Shown here in pieces: positions 2,240 through 64,000 of a stretch of DNA of 64,000 bases. The notes beneath the pieces were generated by a model that was given only the letters and a program-made list of their open reading frames with translations, did not search any database and had not been told where the DNA came from. The stretch covers positions 21,685,971 through 21,749,970 of the forward strand of contig NC_003070.9 in assembly GCF_000001735.4 (NCBI RefSeq), read 5' to 3'. Every line of letters begins with the position of its first letter. Positions within the stretch are counted from its first letter, which is position 1. The translations under genes were made by a program, and so were the position numbers. The DNA is from Arabidopsis thaliana (lineage: Eukaryota; Streptophyta; Magnoliopsida; Brassicales; Brassicaceae).

Positions 2240-2960
2240 TTGTGACGCTTGTACATGTGCTAATGTATGTCTAGATTTCCAGTTTGCTGAAACTGTGGTG
2301 TTTATTTATTGAAAACAAAATAAAAGTCTCTCTTGATAGTTTCATTGTTCTAAATAGAAAACAAGAAACGTTTTTTACTTTAATCTTCTACATTGATAAT
2401 ATTGGATCAAAGGACTGTTTCTGCAAGACACAACACAACATAAATATACTTATACTAGTTTACTTATACTAACTTCATTATACATACACACACTTGCACT
2501 TACACCTATACCTTACTTCTAGACATCATTACCCCGTAGAACCAAGTTTACAAGCAAGTTTACCAACAACTCTAGTCTTTAGCCTTTAACTTGGACTTAC
2601 TAACTAGTCATTAGTTGTTTAAATTTTTTAATTTCCATCCATATGTTTTTGTTATAGATTCAAATTAAAGTCGGTTGCATTTAATAAATGTCACTTCGTT
2701 CTCTTGAGATAAAATTTCTCTATAGTATTGTGTTTTTTTGTTGTAAAATTTTCGAGTCTTTTTCCTAATTTGATACCATGTTTTTTTTCTGCACAAATTC
2801 ACTCACTGTTTTAACTTACTATCCACTTATTAATGATTTTACCATTAGGCGTCAGCTAGCCCTGTCAAATTGGTAAACAAGCCAAGCTATCTACATAATT
2901 AGAGATATCATTAACGTTAATCGTCGTCAATTCGAATTTGAAAGCATAGATAGCTTTAGC
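2240..2960. other. Intergenic, XYN1 3' flank
   Basis: AT-rich 3' flank of the xylanase gene. The 62-aa frame at 2284-2472 has low complexity and no recognisable motif. I see no gene here. Confidence 0.6.
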
Positions 2961-2965
2961 AGTAC

Positions 2966-3100
2966 AATGGGCAATGGTAAGAAGAATAGCAAAAGGCCCA
3001 ATATTTGGTTTGCAGAAATTAAAGCCTTAAAAAAGCCCACAGATATTTGTCAAAGAATCTTAATAACCTTTTTGTTGCTCAAGCGCCGTTCCTAGGGTTT
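2966..3100 (+). promoter_or_regulatory. RPS2A promoter: site II-like motifs and telo-box
   Basis: TGGGCA (2968-2973), GGCCCA (2995-3000) and AGCCCA (about 3034-3039) are site II-type elements (TGGGCY). TAGGGTTT at 3093-3100 is a telo-box in the leader. This pairing is typical of plant ribosomal-protein genes and supports coordinate expression in dividing cells. Motifs are seen directly; function is inferred. Confidence 0.65.
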
Positions 3101-3132
3101 TTCTCTGAGGAAGAAGCGTTTCATTTCTCTGA

Positions 3133-4115
<983 letters not shown>

Positions 4116-58351: not shown

Positions 58352-58920
58352 TTGGCCGGAAATATTGAATATTGTTTTTGGCGGGAAAATGTTAAATTGC
58401 GTTTTTGGTGGAAAAATGTTGAATATCATTTTTGGCGGGAAATTTCTAAATTGCGTTTTTGACAGAAAAATGTCAACTCCTTTTTGGCGGGAAAATGTTC
58501 AATGTCGTTTTTGGCGGAAAATGTTGAATCGCGTTTTTTGGCGAAAAAATGTTGAATTGCGTTTTGGCGAGAAAATATTGAATGTCGTTTTTGGCGAGAA
58601 AATGTTGAATTGCGTTTTGGCGGAAAAATATTGAATGTCGTTTTTGGCTGGAAAATGTTGAATTGCTTTTTGGCGGGAAAATATTGAATGTCGTTTTTGG
58701 CGGGAAAATGTTGAATTGCGTTTTGGCGGGAAAATGTTGATTGTCGTTTTTGGCGAGAAAATGTTGAATTGCGTTTTGGCGGGAAAATAATGAATGTTGT
58801 TTTTGGCGGGAAAATGTTGAATTGCGTTTTGGCGGGAAAATATTGAATGTCGTTTTTGGCGGGAAAATGTTAAATCGCGGTTTTGGCGGAAAAATGTAGA
58901 AAAAAAAATTGACGCGAAAA
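58352..58920. repeat. Minisatellite of about 25-bp units with E2F-type sites
   Basis: More than twenty head-to-tail units of about 24-26 bp, each built on TTTTGGCGGGAAAATGTTGA with ATTGCG or ATGTCG spacers. I count ten exact copies of TTGGCGGGAA, which fits the E2F consensus TTSSCGSSAA, plus a similar number of one-base variants. Frames on either strand (58365-58634, 58473-58931) are translations of the repeat and not proteins. Confidence 0.85.
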
Positions 58921-59133: not shown

Positions 59134-60389
59134 CGACTCTTCTTCCAACGAATAGATAACGGATAAACTCTTCTTCCCACCATCAATGCCCTTCAGCATT
59201 ATGGAATAGTTATGGCCTAATGGGAAAGAAACTGAATAAATACGAATCATCATCATATACGTTTGCAATTGAGATGAAACAAAATAAAATACAAATCTAA
59301 GAAGATTTAACCACTTTGATTTCCAGGACATGGAAAAGGGAAATTAATCAATAGAGTTTGAGAGCAAACCTTTAAAACATCTTGATAGAGATTGAATGAT
59401 AAGAAGCTAGAGTTATGGGGAACTGGAATATAAATACACAAAATAAAGATGAGGAGAAAATATATATATAGCATTCAAAATTAAGGAATCAAGGAGATTA
59501 GAGTTCAGAGGTCAAATATGTATGCAAAATCAAGAGTAATAATTACTATCAGTTATGGTATTAATTAAGGAATCAAAATTGCGTTAGAATTCCTATTGTC
59601 GTTACCTCTTTCAACTCAAAAACACAAAGACGTTACAAATTTGATTTTAAAGAATTGATTGAAAGTGATAATTAAGAAATAATTGAGAGGTGGACAAGTG
59701 TCAAAAGTACATATGATGCCAAATGTCATCGTGTTATGCCAAAAAATTAGCAAAACAAAACGCAGTTTCGTGCTTCGCATGGATGATTTGACACTTTTCG
59801 CCCATGGTAAATCAATTCTGTGTAATCAACTATTGATGAAGCTCCGTCGTTTCATTTTTATACTTGACTAGCAAGTAAAACTGATGTGAGCTTGTATGTT
59901 GTCTCTTCGGTAAGTCAAATTGCGTTGGATTTAATCTATTGTTTTTGGTTTAATAATCTCCACTGCTTTCAGGTCATGTTGATGATCATAAACAATGCTT
60001 AACCGTTGAAATAAAGGTGTTCATGACCATTATCTTGTCCTTTCTTTCTTTTTGGCTTGCCATTTATTGCTTTTTGGCAGATATATTTTCTTTGGTGAAA
60101 TAGCCCAAAATGTGGATTTCTTCCTTCTTCAAGTTTCATAGCGGAGAAAATTAGAAAAACAAGCCTTACTATGCCAATAATTATAGTAGCCGACGACTCA
60201 TTGAAATGTCTTTCATTATATAGTCGTCGGGGACCACTAGCCATTACTTTCTGTGAAATGTATCAAGAGACAAGTTGGAAGAAGAAGACGAGACGAATCA
60301 AGATAATTCAAAGTAAGGCTGCTATTAAGATAGAAAATGGGTGGATTTTAAAGTAGTTGTGGTTTAAAATAAGTCCATCACATGGAGAG
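59134..60389. other. Interval before the probable RPP7 leader
   Basis: The minus-strand frame 59101-59331, plus-strand 59683-59871 and the overlapping pair at 59999-60356 have no recognised domains. Part of this should be promoter of the gene starting near 60400. No other feature supported. Confidence 0.45.
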
Positions 60390-60529
60390 TTTTCAAAAGT
60401 CTGAAGCAGAGAGACATACTTACATATGTGTGATTCTTCCCTAAGAGGAATTCTCAAAAATCAAAGCATCTCTCCTCTTCTTCCTAAACGTCGACGAGTG
60501 GAGTCCTTGGCGCGATCAAGATTCAAAAG
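60390..60529 (+). promoter_or_regulatory. RPP7: Probable non-coding first exon (leader) of RPP7
   Basis: The stretch 60474-60529 (CTTCTTCCTAAACGTCGACG, then CCTTGGCGCGATCAAGA, then AAAG/GTTAGT) is similar to the leader exons of the three receptors at 8412, 13583 and 18819 (CTTCCTAAAGGCGACAACG, CTTGGCGCC, TCAAGAG/GTAAGT). It ends in a splice donor at 60530 on the plus strand. From memory, the next receptor locus is RPP7 (At1g58602), in this orientation and with a Copia element in its first intron. The sequence that follows fits exactly. The transcription start is unknown. The coding exons lie beyond 64000. Confidence 0.65.
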
Positions 60530-60812
60530 GTTAGTCATTTTTATTATTTTTTATTTATTTATTTTTATTTATTAATTTTATTCTTAGCAAATGTTTTTGT
60601 TTCCTATGAAGAATATTTAAATTTATCTCTTAAACTATTGAGTATTGACTATAAAAACTTTTCAATATATTTCTAAAATCTTGTAAAATGAACAGCATTC
60701 CTAATAAGAGTATTATAATTGAAAATGAACAGCAACTAGAGGCATTTTCGAAACGAGGTAACGTAAAAAGAGTATTTCTAATATATTAACATAAGTAGGT
60801 CTTTAACATGCT

Positions 60813-61357
60813 TAGGGATAGCCGTTCAAGTTCGGATTGGGTATTTCAGATTTTTGGGTTTTTGGATTTAGAAGTATATAACATGTTCGGGTATTTGTAA
60901 ATTTTGGATTTTGATCGGGCTTGGGTTGGAATTTAAGGGTTCAGATTCGGATTATCCGAAGTTCCCAAAAATCAATTTTTTTACAACAAAATCTATTCAA
61001 ACTACTCGAAAATACACATAAATATCTGAAATTCTTGAACATTTTTTATTCAAAATACTCAAAAGTAGATTAAATACCAAAAATATTTTAAATATCTTAA
61101 AATCCGTATACTGGATTTGATTATTAGATTACTACAAATATAAATAATAATTATACATTATTACAATATATTTAAATTGTGGATATGTTCAATACCTGTT
61201 CGGATACCGGTTTGGATCCGCTTTGAATTCGAATTTTTGGGTTTAGAAATATTGAACCAGTTCGGGTAATTTGAAATTTTGGATTCGTATTTGGATCGGT
61301 TTTTTTGGACCGGATTCGGATTGGATGCTCGGATTCGGATATTATGCCTAAGTCCTA
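60813..61357. mobile_element. hAT-like non-autonomous element 3
   Basis: A 545-bp block rich in TTCGGAT/TCGGGTA motifs starts TAGGGATAGCCG and ends GCCTAAGTCCTA. It is flanked by perfect 8-bp direct repeats AACATGCT (60805-60812 and 61358-61365). Perfect duplication suggests a younger insertion than elements 1 and 2. No coding capacity. Confidence 0.75.
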
Positions 61358-61421
61358 AACATGCTCCTTTATGTTATCTCTCTCGAAAACAAAAGAGACA
61401 ACCCTAACATACTAAGATCTG

Positions 61422-61461
61422 CCTCTCCAGTTCACGACCCTCCTTGCCGTGACTGGAGAGG
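61422..61461. other. Strong inverted repeat / hairpin
   Basis: CCTCTCCAGTTCACG (61422-61436) is complementary, with one unpaired base, to CGTGACTGGAGAGG (61448-61461) around a loop of about 11 nt. It is seen directly. Its role is unknown; it could be the terminus of a decayed element. Confidence 0.55.
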
Positions 61462-62200
61462 ACTCCCCTCTATTTTTCTCTCGCCGATCTACTTTCTAGT
61501 CAGGACCTCTGTGCAAGATTTCGAAGAAAAAAAACATCATCAATCACAAATCCTCTGCTTAAGCATTCCTCGCTGGTGGTGGTGGCGAGAATTCTCTTCG
61601 AAGAGGTTCCTTTCCCGACGCTCTAAGCTTCATCCTCTTTGAGGCGGTACACTACTTGAGGGCGGTTGTCCTAGCCCTCTCTGAATCCTACGTGGATCTC
61701 ATTCTTTGGATTCACAGTTGGGTGGTGGTTGTTCTTCTAAAAAGAACTGCAGTGTGGTGAGGTCGTATGACTCTAGACGGTTAGTAACGGTGGTGGAGCT
61801 CCTTCTGTTGATCATGCGGTTATTTCCCTGAAAAGAAGAAGTTGCTCCGAGGACGGCAACACGGTCTCTCAAAGGAGCGTTCTGTCAAAATTTTGGGTGA
61901 GGCAAGACAAGATCCCTTCGTATTGGTCACGACAGAGACGCCATTTTGATGGTGTGAGTTTGTTGGTTCCTGTTAAGTTTTTCGGCGTGGGAAGGTTGGA
62001 GTCTAATAGTGTGATTAGCTTCTCCGTTAGTGTTATGGCAAAGGTTTTCTCAGGGTGGTGTGTTTCTACGTTTTCAGCAGTCACTCGGTTCTCTCTAAGT
62101 AGGGAGTCGGCGGATCTAAGCCCAAATCCCACAAGTGCGCACGCCAGATATAACCAGTGTTTGTAGGCAGCGTTAGGAGTGACGATCGCGTTAACGATGA

Positions 62201-62515
62201 CCGTTTCAGCAGGTAGAGGTGTCTATCAACACAATACAGGTAAGAGCAGAGGCTTTCTCTGGCAAACGACAATACGTTGTCGTTTCGGCTAATGGAGCAA
62301 AGAGGAAAATGAAACAGATGGGCCTCGCACAAACCAAGCCCAAGAAGCAGAGGCAACGGTCATCTGTTTCAAGTAAACAGAGTCTAGAATCTTCCTCAAG
62401 TAATGACAAAAGTGGAGCTGGCAATAAGGAGACAACGACCTCTTGTACGGCAAAGCAGTTCAACGTAAAGCTCGAGAATCGTTTCTCAACCCTTGATTCA
62501 GAAGACTCAACTTGA
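62201..62515 (+). pseudogene. ORF fragment cut by the Copia insertion
   Basis: An open frame from 62201 containing KRQYVVVSANGAKRKMKQMG and a Ser/Lys-rich tail. It ends at a TGA whose first base is the first base of the LTR (62513). The stop is therefore created by the inserted element, so the original frame was longer. The surrounding 61380-62512 is GC-richer than its neighbours. The family is uncertain; the tail resembles the end of plant LINE-type ORF1 proteins, but weakly. Confidence 0.35.
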
Positions 62516-62647
62516 TGTATGACATCTGTCCAATGTCTCTAGGGTTTTAGCTAAGTCTCCACCTTTGTATTTAAGTATTCTCAAACTCAAGTTGTAAGCT
62601 TTAAGCAAACTATCAATGAAAACCTAAAAAGATTGATTTTGTCTTCA
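62513..62647 (+). repeat. 5' LTR of Copia element (probable COPIA-R7)
   Basis: Starts TGATGTATGACATC and ends TTTTGTCTTCA, immediately before a tRNA primer-binding site. It contains a TATA-like TATTTAAG (62568-62575) and AATGAA (62615-62620), a plausible poly(A) near-upstream element, then A-rich text. The predicted target duplication upstream is CAACT (62508-62512). The 135-bp length is by boundary inspection; the 3' LTR needed to confirm it is outside the window. Confidence 0.75.
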
Positions 62648-62660
62648 TGGTATCAGAGCT
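62648..62660 (+). other. Primer-binding site
   Basis: TGGTATCAGAGCT directly follows the LTR. TGGTATCAGAGC is complementary to the 3' end of initiator tRNA-Met and is the standard primer site of plant Copia elements. Its perfect state supports a fairly intact element. Confidence 0.9.
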
Positions 62661-62661
62661 C

Positions 62662-64000
62662 ATGGAGAATAGATCCATGGAACTCTACTCACTCCCTTCT
62701 CTAAACATCTCAAATTGTGTCACCGTTACTCTCACTTCAAAGAACTACATCCTCTGGAAATCTCAGTTTGAATCGTTTCTTGACGGCCAAGGGCTTCTAG
62801 GGTTTGTCATTGGCTCCATCCCTGCTCCGAACACAACAAGTGTGGTCTCCGACATCGATGGTTCTACCTCCTCTTCTCCAAACCAAGAATACTTCACATG
62901 GTTCAAAACAGACAGTGTAGTGAAGTCCTGGCTGCTTGGTTCTTTCTCAGAAGACTTTCTCAGCGTCGCCGTCGACTGTAAAACGTCTCATGAGGTATGG
63001 CTCTCTGTTGCTAGACACTGTAATAAGATCTCTTCCTCTAGGTTGTTTGAGCTTCAGAGACGTCTTCAGAATATTAGTAAAAAGGATAAGTCTATGGATG
63101 TCTATCTTAAGGATCTCAAACAAATCTGTGAACAACTAGCATCCGTAGGAAGTTCTGTAACAGAGAAAATGAAGATCTTTGCTGCCTTAAATGGGTTAGG
63201 CCGTGAGTATGAACCAATCAAAACCACTATTGAGAACTCCATTGATACTCAACCCGGTCCAACCCTTGAAGATGTTATTCCCAAGCTCACTGGCTATGAC
63301 GACAGACTGCAAGGTTATCTTGAGGAAACATCTATCTCTCCACATGTTGCGTTCAACATCACAACCTCCAGCAACTCTCCTTCCTCTGATTACTATCACA
63401 ACTCTTACAACCGAGGCAGAGGGAGATCCAACAAAGGCAGAGGTGCTTTCAGCACTCGTGGCAGAGGATTCCACCAGCAAATCTCTTCATCAGTTAGTTC
63501 TGGCAACTCTCAGTCAGGTAGCAATAGTATTATTGTCTGTCAGATCTGTGGAAAGATGGGTCATCCAGCTCTGAAATGTTGGCATCGCTTCAACAACAGC
63601 TATCAGCATGAGGATCTTCCACTTGCCTTAGCTGCAATGAGAATCACAGATGTTACAGATCAGAATGGTAATGAATGGCTCCCTGATTCAGCTGCTACTG
63701 CTCATGTCACAAATAGCCCGTGTTCTCTGCAACAGTCTCAGCCTTATCACGGTTCAGATGCAGTGATGGTAGCTGACGGTAACTTTCTTCCCATCACTCA
63801 CACTGGTTCCACAAATTTGGCTTCTCCATCAGGTATTGTACCTTTAACTGATGTGCTTGTTTGTCCCAGTGTAACGAAATCTTTGTTGTCTGTGTCAAAA
63901 CTCACTAGAGACTACCCATGTACTGTTGAGTTTGACTTTGATAGTGTGAGTATCAATGATAAGGAAACCAAGAAGCTTCTCATAATGGGAAGCACACGTG
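62662..64000 (+). CDS. Copia gag-pol polyprotein, 5' part (runs off window)
   Basis: An uninterrupted frame of 446 codons from ATG at 62662 (two bases after the primer site) to the window end. The gag part starts with the usual Copia N-terminal block (KNYILWKSQFESFLDG). It then has the UBN2-type region (SKKDKSMDVYLKDLKQICEQ), a Gly/Arg-rich linker (NRGRGRSNKGRG) and a zinc knuckle CQICGKMGHPALKC. The protease region starts with WLPDSAATAHVTN, where DSG is replaced by DSA, and continues VLVCPSVTKSLLSVSKL. Integrase and reverse transcriptase must follow beyond base 64000. The absence of stops shows a young or conserved copy. Proposed identity is COPIA-R7 (ATCOPIA4-type) in RPP7 intron 1. Confidence 0.85.
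   Translation, partial: MENRSMELYSLPSLNISNCVTVTLTSKNYILWKSQFESFLDGQGLLGFVIGSIPAPNTTSVVSDIDGSTSSSPNQEYFTWFKTDSVVKSWLLGSFSEDFLSVAVDCKTSHEVWLSVARHCNKISSSRLFELQRRLQNISKKDKSMDVYLKDLKQICEQLASVGSSVTEKMKIFAALNGLGREYEPIKTTIENSIDTQPGPTLEDVIPKLTGYDDRLQGYLEETSISPHVAFNITTSSNSPSSDYYHNSYNRGRGRSNKGRGAFSTRGRGFHQQISSSVSSGNSQSGSNSIIVCQICGKMGHPALKCWHRFNNSYQHEDLPLALAAMRITDVTDQNGNEWLPDSAATAHVTNSPCSLQQSQPYHGSDAVMVADGNFLPITHTGSTNLASPSGIVPLTDVLVCPSVTKSLLSVSKLTRDYPCTVEFDFDSVSINDKETKKLLIMGSTR

Follow-up and report, generated by a model that had tools for sequence, protein, structure and literature searches.

RPP7, a CNL receptor gene, is a well-studied example of how a silenced transposon can tune an immune receptor, and the primary paper on the RPP7/COPIA-R7 ECL switch is Tsuchiya and Eulgem 2013. 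That the element lies in RPP7 and that premature transcript ends fall within it is stated in PMC7529245, PMC8116057 and PMC4417168 (section 14). Control of these ends by EDM2 and H3K9me2 is described in PMC7529245: RPP7 intron 1 has a proximal poly(A) site at which EDM2 promotes H3K9me2 and whose use it suppresses; when EDM2 is missing, the ECL RNA, with its end in the 5′ LTR, builds up and there is less coding RNA; and in edm2-2 there is less RNA downstream of COPIA-R7. Premature polyadenylation at intronic transposable elements, RPP7 included, is reported in PMC4417168 (section 14) and PMC10241880, and EDM2, EDM3 and IBM2 are described as acting jointly at RPP7 (PMC10852260). The published numbering has an exon upstream of the one at 21753888, and ECL takes its name from exon 1 (PMC8116057 and PMC7529245).

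We analysed a stretch of 64,000 nucleotides of Arabidopsis thaliana (the window; C1:21685971-21749970, within a 119.66-Mb genome). Five-digit positions below are those of the window and eight-digit positions those of C1. The end of the window is the 5′ end of RPP7 (At1g58602), with COPIA-R7 sense-oriented within intron 1. This case is already published, and the identification adds nothing to the standing of RPP7 as an example.

RPP7 exons on either side of COPIA-R7

The RPP7 exon-2 primers of PMC8116057 were located at L009 7919 (+) and 8094 (reverse), that is at 21753888-21754087, after the 3′ LTR end at 21753389. In the four loci searched each primer had one match, in order, on the + strand and between leader and CDS. 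By sequence, exon 2 extends from 21753884 to 21754088 and is bounded by CCACAG and by AG followed by GTTAGT; assuming a donor at 60529, intron 1 is 7,384 bp long and runs to L009 7914. RPP7 receptor ORFs follow on the + strand from 21760155 (ATG at 21760167), with Rx_N, NB-ARC, winged-helix and LRR domains by Pfam. Because the exon-2 primers match past the 3′ LTR on the + strand and the RPP7 coding ORFs come next on that strand, the sense Copia element lies inside RPP7 intron 1. The sequence-only reading had named RPP7 here, had tied it to the published LTR poly(A) case and had named the strand of the next receptor as one point on which this would turn. That strand is +, exon 2 lies past the 3′ LTR, and both the name and the link agree with PMC7529245, PMC8116057 and PMC4417168.

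The 3′ portion of exon 1 was assigned to 60432-60529 (+), the 5′ end of the exon not being fixed. The sequence at 60432-60542 gives an 85% match, continuing across the donor, to two cluster copies at 21766898 and 21803156 (L011 1098-1209 and L012 2157-2268). Further leader copies, with 40 of 52 candidates scored, lie at 21839414 (85%) and at 21785452, 21821710 and C1:12924894 (80-86%). The boundary between 60529 and 60530 reads AAAAG followed by GTTAGTCA, and in a six-row leader alignment (RPP7, four cluster copies and one at C1:12.925 Mb) AAG followed by GTTAGTCA is kept in every row. From this alignment, GTTAGT at 60530-60535 (+) is the candidate 5′ splice donor that starts RPP7 intron 1. 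A leader-like stretch ending in a donor had been proposed here, and this was borne out, with the cluster copies aligning across the donor.

The same stretch had been likened to the leaders of the three upstream receptors, which sit on the minus strand. Local scores were 59, 46 and 30, while the maxima of 200 first-order Markov shuffles were 30, 31 and 31, respectively; therefore two of the three receptors stand out from the shuffles, and the third does not. The third shares two short stretches of similarity with RPP7 exon 2 and the sequence flanking it upstream. The strongest leader similarity is that to the downstream cluster copies. An exon start at 60474, as first suggested, is probably too late: leader homology begins at 60243-60350, and TATATAG at 60217-60223 (+), a string match, may serve the distal RPP7 promoter as its TATA box. 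The true start of exon 1 probably lies before 60474.

The anatomy of the locus is demonstrated by these positions, and from it the following course of transcription may be proposed. Pol II would start at the distal leader, presumably near 60.25-60.45 kb. Cleavage within the 5′ LTR (62224-62647), at a site that LTR words may set, would then give the non-coding ECL RNA. Where EDM2, acting with EDM3 and IBM2 as heterochromatin readers on H3K9me2, suppresses the 5′ LTR site, polymerase would read through the element, and splicing of 60529 to exon 2 at 21753884, the predicted junction, would give receptor mRNA. As a whole explanation, the 5′ end of RPP7 with COPIA-R7 in intron 1 and a choice between ECL and receptor mRNA seems to us nearly certain. 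Published results that count against it are that 3′ RACE failed to recover the full-length RPP7 transcript (PMC4417168, in section 14) and that FPA affects RPP7 mainly through termination in exon 6 rather than at COPIA-R7 (PMC8116057).

Structure of COPIA-R7 and its surroundings in intron 1

Alignment of the LTR pair gives a 5′ LTR of 424 bp at 62224-62647 (+), with TATCAA...CTTCA ends, and a 3′ LTR of 430 bp at L009 6991-7420 (end 21753389). Of 430 aligned columns, 423 are identical, the differences being a single substitution and a 6-bp indel. The whole element is 5,196 bp long and its 5′ LTR starts 1,694 bp past the donor. A target-site duplication, GTGTC, lies at 62219-62223 (+), with GTGTT after the 3′ LTR (one mismatch). 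Directly after the 5′ LTR comes the primer-binding site TGGTATCAGAGC at 62648-62659 (+), which we take to be that of the initiator tRNA; it reads TGGTATCAGAG at 62648, and GAGGGGGAG stands directly before the 3′ LTR. An ARAGORN tRNA scan (bacterial code) returned 0 genes, an uninformative result. Two LTRs, a primer-binding site, a 5-bp duplication with one mismatch and the order gag-integrase-RT agree with Ty1/Copia, and the sense Copia element that had been placed downstream of the leader is present. TATTTAA at 62568-62574 (+) may serve as a TATA-like box of the LTR.

The LTR had been started at 62513. This was ruled out, since the LTR pair aligns from 62224, 289 bp earlier. The TG that lies slightly upstream, within GTGTCTATC, was ruled out as the start as well: GGGGGAG precedes the 3′ LTR, and the LTRs are common only from TATCAACAC. 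The LTR ends are thus TA...CA (TATCAA...TCTTCA), not the canonical TG...CA, which is usual in Ty1/Copia but not required, and the TATCAACAC start is found in two of five other LTR regions aligned. One substitution in 424 sites corresponds to an age of 0.17 Myr at 7e-9 substitutions per site per year (Poisson 95% 0.004-0.95 Myr), or 0.08 Myr at 1.5e-8, an estimate that shifts under gene conversion or methylated-cytosine decay. Among the papers listed in a search of the open-licence literature, and in passages of PMC6684095, no mention of COPIA-R7 in other accessions was found.

Gag and the start of pol occupy 62620-64000 (+) and stay open past the window end to L009 4480 (21750449), where the frame, open for 619 aa, stops inside the integrase core. 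It has Pfam matches to Retrotran_gag_2, Retrotran_gag_3 and Pol_BBD, and an rve match of 23.2 bits, under the Pfam cut-off of 32.6. SH3-like and RT stretches come later, in separate ORFs, and a stop splits RT; RVT_2 is above the Pfam cut-off in one of the two RT pieces. RNase H after RT is how we read the last ORF; it was not a Pfam match. A continuous gag-pol frame had been claimed, and this holds inside the window but not beyond it, where the stop at 21750449 and the split RT interrupt it. COPIA-R7 lacks the single unbroken gag-pol frame of an autonomous Copia element.

AATGAA is present where it had been read, at 62615-62620 (+), as a candidate near-upstream poly(A) element, and again at L009 7388 in the 3′ LTR. 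TTGTAA at 62592-62597 (+) is a candidate far-upstream element, presumably acting in poly(A) site choice as that motif does. In 60530-62700 AATGAA occurs four times, two of them in the 5′ LTR (62308 and 62615); among 2,000 shuffles of the LTR, about 22% contain at least one copy. Taken alone, AATGAA is a chance-level word and not significant, and it was not accepted as proof of a poly(A) site. Among seven LTR rows (two of them R7's own), its column reads AATGAA in three, AATAAA in one and AATGGA in one, with two unaligned there. The three further AATGAA in 60530-62700 were counted against the best explanation. Because the words of one LTR, AATGAA among them, recur in the other, we infer that the two reported poly(A) sites may be the two LTRs, with full-length RNA passing both. 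The corrected borders are useful for placing the poly(A) site.

Upstream of the element, a degenerate interspersed repeat extends over about 60816-61348, as seen from genome matches: 34 of 44 fall inside query 424-969, at 64-92% identity (40 of 52 candidates scored). For the intron stretch from there to the element, 61349-62218, no second copy was found; a search for a transposon family, which skips simple repeats and very common words, returned the self match alone at E<=10. This stretch is part of the area of the published ECL template (PMC7529245). High H3K9me2 is reported in that paper both on COPIA-R7 and on the upstream intron segment templating ECL, so the mark is not confined to 62513 onward.

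Two leader copies in RPP7

The leader module is present twice in RPP7, its second copy being exon 2. We tentatively consider, at rather less than even chances, that exon 2 was the ancestral first exon and was made internal by capture of an upstream leader and promoter; COPIA-R7 would then lie in former intergenic or promoter space, and the intron would be an innovation. This reading is favoured by the similarity of the two regions, the 5′ part of the module at 60326-60412 (+) being 76% identical to part of exon 2 (L009 7947-8027), with a local score of 66 against a maximum of 32 in 500 Markov shuffles. It is also favoured by the intron after exon 1, which at 21746551-21746638 is 72% identical to 21791893-21791982, the sequence after the leader of one paralog (E 1.6e-6). 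All four cluster paralogs have the exon-2-type leader at about 85% identity, and in each of them 258 bp separate its end from the ATG, compared with 6,078 bp in RPP7, and all four read CCACAA, without the acceptor AG, where RPP7 has CCACAG; since the paralogs are of two types in recent tandem copies, they amount to fewer than four independent observations. The genes At1g58807, At1g58848, At1g59124 and At1g59218, named in PMC8116057, are probably these four paralogs. In addition, the homology of RPP7 to RF45-type upstream DNA ends at 21753729, with none before it.

Against capture of a leader, upstream receptor R1 also reads CCACAG, so the AG may be ancestral and have been lost in the paralogs. 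The four paralogs also carry exon-1-type leaders 6-13 kb upstream, which could likewise be far first exons, and the drop of downstream RNA in edm2-2 (PMC7529245) suggests that exon 2 has at best a weak promoter. NLR remnants in intron 1 would mark exon 1 as coming from a lost receptor; between exon 1 and exon 2 none was found at E<=1e-3 with two RPP7 protein pieces against the tiled 111,031-base cluster.

It is possible, with still somewhat more doubt, that the retrotransposon switch itself rests on the duplicated leader, exon 2, which has an acceptor, having once been the first exon, and the captured distal leader having made the COPIA-R7 space into intron 1. If so, the receptor promoter would have moved from beside the ATG to a place beyond both the element and a second block of about 5.8 kb of extra sequence in intron 2. 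The leader duplication may be the new part of this work; among the papers listed in searches of the open-licence literature, nothing on a duplicated RPP7 leader was found. The two-leader anatomy raises a testable question, namely the origin of the long intron in RPP7, which is absent from its neighbours.

Alternatively, RPP7 might have a promoter in the 3′ LTR or in the sequence that precedes exon 2, so that part of the receptor mRNA would be independent of readthrough of COPIA-R7. The TATA-like box is kept in the 3′ LTR, the LTRs being identical there, and the 5′ region of exon 2 is of the leader type. However, according to PMC7529245, the element carries high H3K9me2 in wild type, and in edm2-2 RNA downstream of it drops, and we regard such a promoter as improbable. 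It is very improbable that the leader at 60.4 kb, rather than being spliced to RPP7, is an orphan from some lost gene or from a neighbour, given the conserved donor and the published exon upstream of 21753888 for which ECL is named, even though three of the five non-RPP7 exon-1-type cluster leaders precede identical inositol-pentakisphosphate 2-kinase-like ORFs and the leader module is therefore not receptor-specific.

Comparison with known systems

The arrangement preferred here, with COPIA-R7 in RPP7 intron 1 and a choice between ECL and receptor mRNA, is that of the published ECL switch: locus, element and intron are the same, the sense orientation is found here, and no difference at the level of the locus was seen. 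Beyond PMC7529245, the present analysis gives the LTR borders, the TA...CA ends, the target-site duplication, the broken pol and the leader duplication. RPP4/COPIA4, as described in PMC7529245, is alike in that NLR transcripts end in a Copia 5′ LTR and EDM2/H3K9me2 affects the proximal poly(A) site, and unlike in that COPIA4 lies downstream of RPP4, whereas COPIA-R7 lies in the first intron of RPP7. AT3G05410 and AT1G11270 (PMC4417168, within section 14) share with RPP7 a retroelement of about 5 kb in the gene and premature polyadenylation upon loss of heterochromatin; their elements are reported with intact ORFs, in contrast to COPIA-R7, whose pol is broken.

Leader copies in RPP7 exons 1 and 2

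RPP7 exon 1 (window 60326-60529) and exon 2 (L009 7915-8119, in the cluster locus that carries the rest of COPIA-R7) are two copies of one leader module. Sequence comparison showed that all four cluster paralogs read AA at the position of the exon-2 acceptor AG. Exon 1 also holds a predicted upstream ORF (window 60426-60529). Splicing to exon 2 would give it a length of 44 aa, against 49 aa in unspliced RNA.

The COPIA-R7 LTR and the repetitive blocks

In the LTR alignment, the COPIA-R7 LTR ends are TA...CA, and its start is common to two relatives. A stop-to-stop open frame of 104 aa (window 62201-62515) spans most of the 5' LTR; no Pfam match was found for it. Compared with the paralogs, RPP7 intron 2 (L009 8227 to L010 4211, L010 being a further cluster locus that takes in the end of this intron) contains ~5.8 kb of additional sequence. 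Some segments are repeated within the block, and one portion has a relative with 93% identity at C1:16840607. The block is TE-like and is the second of its kind ahead of the ATG. Upstream of exon 1, window 58373-58897 is repetitive, with inverted relatives (66-71%) in intron 2 at 21758774-21759428.

A leader before a kinase-like ORF

At cluster locus L011, an exon-1-type leader (1034-1209) lies 1.6 kb 5' of an inositol-pentakisphosphate 2-kinase-like ORF (2818-3480), which matches Pfam PF06090. Three tandem copies carry this ORF in identical form. Different gene types may have swapped leaders here.
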